Source of the DNA: Utricularia gibba | Lineage: Eukaryota > Streptophyta > Magnoliopsida > Lamiales > Lentibulariaceae | Direction: 5' to 3' | NCBI GenBank assembly: GCA_002189035.1 | Contig: CM007992.1 | Location: forward strand, 868,001-932,000 | DNA length: 64,000 nucleotides | Shown: positions 18,769 through 23,500 of the stretch, piece by piece | Position numbering within the stretch: position 1 is the first letter of the stretch | Layout of the letters: each line of letters starts with the position of its first letter | The notes under the pieces: model-generated | The model's input: the letters and a program-made list of their open reading frames with translations, nothing else | Databases searched by the model: none | Told to the model about the DNA's origin: nothing | Program-made: the position numbers and the translations under genes

Positions 18769-19035
18769 TCAATGACCACCACCGTGCTGTTGCTGATGCG
18801 CAAGATGCCGGCGCTCTTCAGGGAGGGCGACGAGATAAGATAACGCCATCCCACCAAAGCAGATGTGATAAAGAGGATCAGCGGAGCCGGTTTCAATGTA
18901 CTTCGCGTGGTAAGCATCAAGCCCACGCTTCCCAGCGTTCTTCAGGTAATTGATTGTGAACATAGGCTTCAAGTGCGCAGGCAAATCCCTAACCTTCAAC
19001 GCTCTTATCTCGTTGTAGAAGCCCCTCAGCGCCAT
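18769..19035 (-). CDS. Small plant mitochondrial ATP synthase subunit (ATP17/subunit f type)
   Basis: A single exon encodes 88 residues. It opens MALRGFYNEIRALKVRDLP, continues KPMFTINYLKNAGKRGLDAY and HAKYIETGSADPLYHICFGG, has one transmembrane stretch (ICFGGMALSYLVAL) and ends LPEERRHLAHQQQHGGGH. Length, single membrane span and the His-rich tail match the plant protein I know as a subunit f-like component (ATP17) of the inner-membrane F1Fo ATP synthase; some databases label it only by an uninformative name. The start sits at the first Met of the conserved block. Palindromic Site II elements lie about 95-110 bp upstream, typical for plant genes of the respiratory chain. It is divergent from the snoRNA pair. 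Confidence 0.82.
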   Translation of the reverse strand: MALRGFYNEIRALKVRDLPAHLKPMFTINYLKNAGKRGLDAYHAKYIETGSADPLYHICFGGMALSYLVALPEERRHLAHQQQHGGGH

Positions 19036-19112: not shown

Positions 19113-19211
19113 TGGGCTCGCCGAAATAATGGGCCTGAGGCCCATATTCAACATGACTCCTATATATTTCGAAGACGCCCTAGTACCACCCCGTCATTGC
19201 TTAGAACCCTA
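19113..19211. promoter_or_regulatory. Site II palindrome and telo-box between the ATP synthase gene and the snoRNA genes
   Basis: The palindrome ATGGGCC-TGA-GGCCCAT lies at 19129-19145, another TGGGCT at 19113, and a telo-box AACCCTA at 19205-19211. Site II plus telo-box is the known promoter signature of many plant snoRNA and ribosomal protein genes, and Site II alone is frequent at respiratory genes. The block sits 94 bp upstream of the ATP synthase start and about 110 bp before the first snoRNA, so it could serve both. Confidence 0.6.
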
Positions 19212-19318: not shown

Positions 19319-19395
19319 GAGGCAGATGATGCACTTCATGTAGTTGAATGCTCTGAGCATAGTGACGCTCATCTAATAGGAAGATCTGATGCTTC
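19319..19395 (+). ncRNA. Candidate C/D-box snoRNA (first of a pair)
   Basis: The 5' end GAGGCA can pair with the 3' end TGCTTC (six pairs, one G-U). Inside are a C-box-like ATGATGC (19326-19332, last base off consensus), D' box CTGA (19353-19356), a C'-like AGTGACG (from 19361) and D box CTGA (19386-19389). Length is 77 nt, normal for plant C/D snoRNAs. The guides beside D' and D would read AGCAUUCAACUA and AUCUUCCUAUUA in a target; I could not place either in rRNA from memory. The second, stronger snoRNA 71 nt downstream supports a polycistronic cluster, which is common in plants. The open frame over this stretch has no protein resemblance. Confidence 0.55.
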
Positions 19396-19466: not shown

Positions 19467-19556
19467 GGATTCCATGGATGATGAGAACATATGCCATTAT
19501 ACAGTTATCCCTGTCTGATTATCTGCGATGAGATGCTGATGGCTGACATGGAATCC
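19467..19556 (+). ncRNA. C/D-box snoRNA, predicted snR38-like guide for 25S rRNA
   Basis: A perfect 10-bp terminal stem is formed by GGATTCCATG (19467-19476) and CATGGAATCC (19547-19556). C box ATGATGA is at 19478-19484, D' box CTGA at 19515-19518, C'-like GCGATGA at 19525-19531 and D box CTGA at 19543-19546. Directly before D' is CAGTTATCCCTGT, complementary to ACAGGGATAACTG, a universally conserved segment of large-subunit rRNA near the peptidyl-transferase centre. The D+5 rule points to the middle G of GGG. By my count this equals E. coli G2446 and yeast G2815, the site known to be methylated with yeast snR38. The box geometry and stem are seen directly; the target assignment is inference from known rules. 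Confidence 0.85.
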
Positions 19557-19827: not shown

Positions 19828-19963
19828 ATTGTCCGTTTTGAGTACTTAATTTTCATTGTTTTATGTTTTTCCCACATATCGTCCGATTTTTCGGCATTGT
19901 CCGTTTTGAGTACTCAATTTTCATTGTTTTATGTTTTTCCCACATATCGTCCGACTTTTCGGC
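19828..19963. repeat. Tandem duplication, two copies of about 68 bp
   Basis: The block beginning ATTGTCCGTTTTGAGTACT occurs twice head to tail (19828-19895 and 19896-19963) with only a few differences (for example ATTTTTCGG against ACTTTTCGG). It adjoins the 5S-like segment and looks like part of the same LTR, since sequences of the type CAAAACGGACAAT are frequent in plant TRIM LTRs. Confidence 0.85.
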
Positions 19964-20510: not shown

Positions 20511-23500
20511 ATGGGTTCAGATTCGAAAATGGTGCATTCACCGTTCGTCACGTTCGCCTCGATGCTGTCCCTTCTTTGTCTCTGCCCTCCGTTCGTTATT
20601 CTGCTGTAAGTTGTGGATTTTGTTGTTCCTAATGCAAGCTTACTCTGTTTCTCGCCCAAGTTTAGATTGCGCAATCCCCTCAGTGCATTAAACGAACCCT
20701 ATGCAGTTTTCTTAGAGTTGGGTTTCAGTGGGACAGATATATGTTGAGAAATGTAGAATAAATAGGCAAGAGATTCATTTTGTTTGTAAGCCGCAATCTA
20801 CGGCATTTGTTCAAGACAGTGGAAACGATACGAATTCGCATAGATTCTGCTCTTTGTGTGGAAGATTTCAATCCTCCTCGTACATGCTGTGAATAGAAAA
20901 GTTCAATCTTATGTTTTCAGATGGTACACAATGGTGCATGCTGATGGATCCGTGTCTCAGACGTGGTCATATCTAAGGGAGCATGGCCAGAATGGACTAA
21001 TTAACATCTGGCCACGGCCCACGGGAACTGCCCTGAAAATTATTGCCATTTATGCTGCATTTGAAGCTGCTCTGCAACTTTTGTTGCCGGGTAAAAGGGT
21101 TGAGGGGCCAATATCTCCTGCTGGAAATAGGCCTGTCTATAAGGTATTCCATCTGTGGTACTAATTTATGGGGGATTGATTCTTTGTTGCCTTGAAGGAG
21201 TTTGGGGTATCCAATTATCACTGCTTATACTTTATATTGAACCTTTTAATGGAAGGATAAATGATAATTGGTTCACTTTCCTTCAAATCTACGTACTGCA
21301 GGCCAACGGTGTTTTTGCTTATGCAGTAACAATGGTCACATACCTTAGCCTCTGGTGGTAAGATGTTTCTAGGAACAGGCATCGCGGAGACAAATTAGCT
21401 TATCATTATTTCTTTTTAAGACGTATAAGATTATCTGACTTTTGCTGTCTACTGACGATGTTGAGTTTTAAAAGTTGTTCAACAATTACTATTATCCATT
21501 CAAAAAATGTAGTTGATATGCGTAGCTCTAGTTTTTTGTCAGTAACTGTCACATTCTTTAGTAACATCTGTCTGGTGACAATGTGTGATTCTGGTTTACT
21601 CAGGTTTGGGATTTTCAACCCCAGTATCGTTTATGACCATCTTGGGGAGATATTCTCAGCTCTCATTTTTGGAAGCCTTATTTTTTGCATTTTCCTGCAC
21701 ATCAAGGTGGGATTTCAGGGAAAATGTTATGGTATACCTCAGTCTCTTTGTTGTTGATCTAAGTTGAAATGGCTCTTCATTTATTGTTTTCCCTGTTCAA
21801 GGGACATCTGGCACCATCATCATCTGACTCTGGGTCATCCGGAAATATTATCATTGACTTCTATTGGGTAAGAACAGCAATAGGACCTTCCCTTTGTTCT
21901 TTTTTACCAGTTATTAATTGTTTTACATTTTATGATATGTCTCATCAAATGGATTCTTTTTTAGCGTTCATGGATCGCTTAGCTGAAATTTGTGATGCAT
22001 GTCAAAGTGAGTCATTGATGACCATGGTTTTACAGGGGATGGAGTTGTATCCGCGTATTGGCAAGCACTTCGACATCAAAGTTTTCACTAACTGCAGGTT
22101 TGGCATGATGGCATGGGCTGTACTTGCTGTGACATACTGCATAAAACAGGTGCATTTAATTTAAGACTATGATACTAAGTGTATATTTTCTGTGGCCCGA
22201 TACTGACACTTTTCTTGTTTCATTTCAAACGAGTGCCTCTTCATTGTTCGTTGGTTGAGTTTTTACTTAATATTTCCTCCTAATTTTTCTTTTACTGCTA
22301 TTTTTATTATTTTCTGAACTAAGGTTTCAAAGTTCTTAGCAAGATGCTCTAAATGTTATGTTTGTGCAGTATGAAACATATGGTCATTTATCTGATTCGA
22401 TGCTGATAAACACCATATTAATGCTGGTGTATGTTACAAAATTTTTTTGGTGGGAAGCTGGATATTGGAATACAATGGATATTGCTCATGATCGAGGTGT
22501 CATTTCTGATTTGTTATTTACACCCTTTAAATGAGTTGTCAGATGGTATGTAATTGGGTACATTTTTGGATTTTTCAGCTGGCTTTTACATATGTTGGGG
22601 ATGTTTAGTTTGGGTCCCCTCTATTTATACATCTCCTGGAATGTACCTCGTTAATCACCCAGTGAATCTGGGATCTCAGGTACCTTGAAAGCTGCTTCGC
22701 TTATTAGCATATGTTGAAGCGATTGTTGCTTACTGCTTACGATCTTTTATGGCTTCACTCATGCAGCTTGCTCTGAGTATTCTCGCTGCTGGAATTCTGT
22801 GCATATACATAAACTATGACTGTGACAGGCAAAGACAAGAATTTCGCAGGACAAATGGAAAGTGCTTGGTTTGGGGAAAGGCTCCTTCAAAGGTAATAAA
22901 TAGTTTGGCCCTGAAAAACTGCCATGTTCAATGCCAGACTCATAGATGTCAGTCTGGAGGGTTCCCTAATTGTTAAAAAATTCATTCACTTCTTGAGACT
23001 TCTTTTATGTAGATCGTTGCATCGTACACAACCACCAGTGGTGAAACAAAAACCAGCCTTCTTCTTACATCTGGATGGTATGCGCATATTCTGCAAAAGT
23101 TGAATTCATGGAGCTGTGGTCTCTGCACTCTAAAATGGCCTGCTCATGGCTTTGTAGGTGGGGCTTAGCTCGTCACTTCCATTACGCACCCGAAATTCTT
23201 GGGGCCTTTTTCTGGACAGTGCCAGCACTATTCAACCATGTAAATTTTTCACAAGGAAGATCTTTTCTTTCCATGAAATCTCCTATCCCGGCTAATTTCA
23301 TGTTGCTCTGCTTGCAGGCTCTACCTTACTTTTACGTGGTGTTCCTCACCATACTCCTTTTTGACAGAGCAAAACGGGACGACGACCGGTGCAGATTGAA
23401 GTAACTGCAAACCATACCCATTGATATTGATCTACACTATTACTTCAGATCTTTTCTTGACACTAGTCCATGGCAGGTATGGCAAGTACTGGAAACTGTA

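Follow-up and report, generated by a model that had tools for sequence, protein, structure and literature searches.

In Arabidopsis, RiboMeth-seq revealed methylation of 25S rRNA at G2816, with SnoR38Y as the guide, and U2884 is listed with SnoR64 in the same work (PMC8053127). The large-subunit target of Arabidopsis SNOR38Y is common to human SNORD1 (G4362) and to the cryptophyte nucleomorph RNA GtNM-R10 (PMC6461891). As to gene organization, site II motifs and telo-boxes are associated in plant ribosomal-protein genes and non-intronic snoRNA genes, and the precursors are capped and polyadenylated (PMC3022908). The window analysed here, i.e. the whole stretch of DNA to which all coordinates refer unless another contig is named, comprises 64,000 nt of Utricularia gibba (GCA_002189035.1, CM007992.1, 868,001-932,000, forward strand). 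The snoR38 site equals G2815 of yeast 25S rRNA, where snR38 is the guide.

On the plus strand of this window, a box C/D snoRNA with a full terminal stem spans positions 19467-19556 and is assigned to snoR38 by cmscan (RF00213). The 5' strand of the stem, GGATTCCATG (19467-19476), is the perfect reverse complement of its 3' strand, CATGGAATCC (19547-19556); by direct reading and script, the stem amounts to ten perfect pairs, or 11 when one G-U is counted. Box C (ATGATGA, 19478-19484) was read directly. The guide CAGTTATCCCTGT (19502-19514), complementary to the 25S segment ACAGGGATAACTG and also contained in the Rfam snoR38 consensus, is immediately followed by box D' (CTGA, 19515-19518). Box C' (GCGATGA, 19525-19531) carries one mismatch to RUGAUGA, and box D (CTGA, 19543-19546) was located by script. 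All four boxes and the stem are in register, and the original prediction of four boxes, a perfect 10-bp stem and a 13-nt guide next to D' held at every position. A descriptor consisting of box C, a box D 45-110 nt downstream and a terminal stem matched once in the 64-kb window, and Markov-simulated windows yielded 0.13 matches for stems of 6 upwards and 0.007 for stems of 9 upwards. Besides, the 90-nt RNA folds more stably than its shuffled versions (z -3.6). The element is not a chance product.

The proposed check against Rfam models likewise bore out the assignment to an snR38-type C/D snoRNA: in a cmscan of the window with all Rfam families, snoR38 was the sole match above threshold (64.2 bits vs a gathering cut-off of 45, E 1.2e-8), and the model was matched over its full length (1-91) at 19470-19553 (+), inside the full stem span. 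The further claim that annotation would miss this RNA holds for protein-based annotation, but not in general, since routine scanning with Rfam/Infernal detects it. The D/D'+5 rule places the methylated ribose opposite the fifth guide nucleotide, which for CAGTTATCCCTGT is the second G of ACAGGGATAACTG. The target had been predicted at the snR38 site, in agreement with the D'+5 nucleotide corresponding to Arabidopsis 25S G2816, which RiboMeth-seq assigns to SnoR38Y (PMC8053127). Judged from its sequence, 19467-19556 is thus almost certainly a snoR38 that would guide modification of the 25S nucleotide equal to Arabidopsis G2816.

A genome search with the 13-mer target turned up nothing but a truncated 25S-like fragment, located on contig C2; it reads GTTACCACAGGGATAACTGGCTTGTG and retains all 13 target nucleotides, so this genome carries the complete target within rDNA-like DNA. 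We identified the fragment as 25S by eye, and Rfam reported nothing for it at the gathering threshold. An intact 25S copy was not found in the genome, where the exact pattern GGGATAACTGGCTTGTGGC is absent, and the plant-type 25S string is absent from the viral contigs too. As no full 25S was retrieved from the genome, the snoR38-25S pairing is predicted from the fragment and from the conserved 25S sequence. Of note, the fragment (L008, about 1497-1595; G000:C2 near 245377) lies in non-rDNA surroundings, and the stretch directly adjoining it has about 20 dispersed genomic relatives at 73-91% identity. Perhaps a mobile element sits here beside an inserted piece of rDNA.

About 70 nt upstream of snoR38 and in tandem with it, at 19319-19395 (+), lies a probable second C/D RNA, snoR64-like, which was overlooked in the original prediction. 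It was recognized by its boxes, stem and guide blocks together with a sub-threshold cmscan match to RF01163 (snoR64a; 28.3 bits, under the gathering cut-off of 45; E 0.034 in 1.2 kb). Its terminal stem consists of six pairs (GAGGCA/TGCTTC), and script measurement on the plus strand placed box C (ATGATGC) at 19326-19332, box D' (CTGA) at 19353-19356, the D guide AATAGGAAGAT at 19375-19385 and box D (CTGA) at 19386-19389. Both conserved snoR64 guide blocks, GUUGAAUGCUC and AUAGGAAGAUCUGAUGC, occur exactly and in the right order, and nine bases of the D guide can pair with TCTTCCTAT in 25S rRNA. Applied to a plant-type 25S stretch, the D+5 rule predicts as target a U located exactly 68 nt 3' from the position guided by snoR38. 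The same spacing separates U2884 from G2816 in Arabidopsis (PMC8053127). The fold of this RNA was no more stable than that of its shuffles. On the strength of its guides, boxes and stem, we consider 19319-19395 very probably a divergent snoR64, a designation that makes no claim of Rfam membership. Matches of snoR26, Z101, SNORD83 and other families at the places of both RNAs were weaker and all below threshold, and they were dismissed. A further snoR64-like place (L014), the sole other candidate of similar standing, was rejected on account of its altered D guide and box D.

Upstream of the first snoRNA, as far as position 19035, where a minus-strand ORF starts, the plus strand contains several promoter motifs. 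A motif scan identified three site II motifs within 19113-19144 (TGGGCT at 19113, TGGGCC at 19130 and, inverted, GGCCCA at 19139) and a telo-box core, AACCCTA, at 19205-19211, which matches seven of the eight nucleotides of AAACCCTA; a TATA-like run, TATATATTT, was read directly at 19161-19169. Nowhere else in the window, on either strand, does a telo core have at least two site II motifs within 150 nt upstream. The ORF itself (88 aa, 18769-19035) is divergent from the snoRNA pair and has no Pfam match; it resembles a small mitochondrial protein of plants. Acting as a two-way promoter, the site II region with its inverted motif pair may serve this gene too. Just 3' of the snoRNA pair, a tandem duplication occupies 19828-19963 (68-bp unit, 2.0 copies, 97% matches). 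Further downstream, plus-strand exons at about 20856-22534 encode a member of the ERG4/ERG24 sterol reductase family that resembles plant 7-dehydrocholesterol reductase.

Given the layout of site II, TATA-like and telo motifs and the arrangement of the neighbours, the snoR64-like RNA and snoR38 most likely form a small, independent Pol II dicistronic gene. Alternatively, both RNAs might be released from a longer host transcript, protein-coding or lncRNA, in which they would lie within an intron or UTR; intronic snoRNA clusters are frequent in rice, though exceptional in Arabidopsis (PMC3022908). However, the gene-like ORF to the left runs on the minus strand, the plus-strand ERG4_ERG24 exons start more than 1 kb downstream, beyond AT-rich DNA and the tandem repeat, and the promoter motifs stand immediately upstream of the pair, all of which makes such a host transcript very unlikely. 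If 19319-19395 were no snoRNA, snoR38 would be a single-RNA gene, and the low RF01163 score, weak fold and imperfect box C do point in this direction. Yet two separate snoR64 guide blocks in the right order come together with a six-pair terminal stem, the D guide leads, at the correct distance, to the site established for SnoR64, and the searched genome holds no other snoR64 above the cut-off, so that we regard this alternative as unlikely.

A further alternative is that the snoR38 of this locus is silent or decaying and that a working copy resides elsewhere in the genome. Several copies are indeed common in plant snoRNA families (PMC5122169), and the next-best snoR38 place, G000:C413:1386110-1386178 on the minus strand (L003 1501-1569), retains an exact 18-nt block, ACAGTTATCCCTGTCTGA, plus a C'-like stretch. 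It scores 29.7 bits, below the cut-off, and was rejected as a second snoR38 for want of a good box C or box D; it could be a snoR38 relic. By contrast, the copy at 19467-19556 is intact, with a promoter of the snoRNA type in front of it, and it is the one place over the cut-off in the genome (E 4.6e-9; 100 Mb, 516 contigs). A silent window copy thus seems extremely improbable, even if further snoR38 copies may exist, as the assembly may be incomplete.

From the sequence anatomy, the snoR38 family membership, the guide complementarity and the promoter motifs present at the locus, we infer how transcription, processing and methylation would proceed in Utricularia gibba. The Pol II gene would give rise to a single precursor carrying the snoR64-like RNA (19319-19395) and snoR38 (19467-19556), from which each snoRNA would be excised; trimming would stop at its terminal stem, and the C/D proteins would bind it. 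The D' guide of snoR38 would then pair with ACAGGGATAACTG in the peptidyl-transferase centre of 25S rRNA, where fibrillarin would methylate the ribose that we equate with Arabidopsis G2816, yeast G2815 and human 28S G4362. One might go further and see in the snoR64-snoR38 pair an uncatalogued dicistron, whose single transcript co-delivers guides to two domain V sites of 25S rRNA, 68 nt apart, to the peptidyl-transferase region; we put this forward tentatively, and it is rather doubtful. The conserved clusters discussed in PMC5122169 do not include this pair, neither RNA being named in the main text of that paper, and the main texts of PMC8351944 and PMC7464842 do not mention snoR38 or snoR64.

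In summary, the present snoR38 is an ordinary, conserved housekeeping snoRNA gene of a well-known kind, and what is new here is probably the upstream snoR64-like partner together with the promoter. The plant genome thereby gains a snoR38 gene with good support and, probably, a snoR64 gene as well, which is useful for full annotation and leaves our knowledge of rRNA methylation unchanged. With snoR38/SnoR38Y (RF00213; compare yeast snR38 and human SNORD1), the RNA described here shares the guide, the D' position, the box layout and the predicted 25S target nucleotide, whereas its terminal stem is longer than in the Rfam model (10 bp, perfect, vs 7) and its D'-C' spacer falls 7 nt below the consensus length. 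The upstream RNA has both guide blocks in common with Rfam snoR64a (RF01163), the guide for Arabidopsis 25S U2884, but differs in its shorter spacers and sub-gathering score and would be a divergent member at best. As in the non-intronic polycistronic snoRNA genes of plants, the tandem C/D RNAs at this locus are preceded by site II motifs, a TATA-like run and a telo motif.
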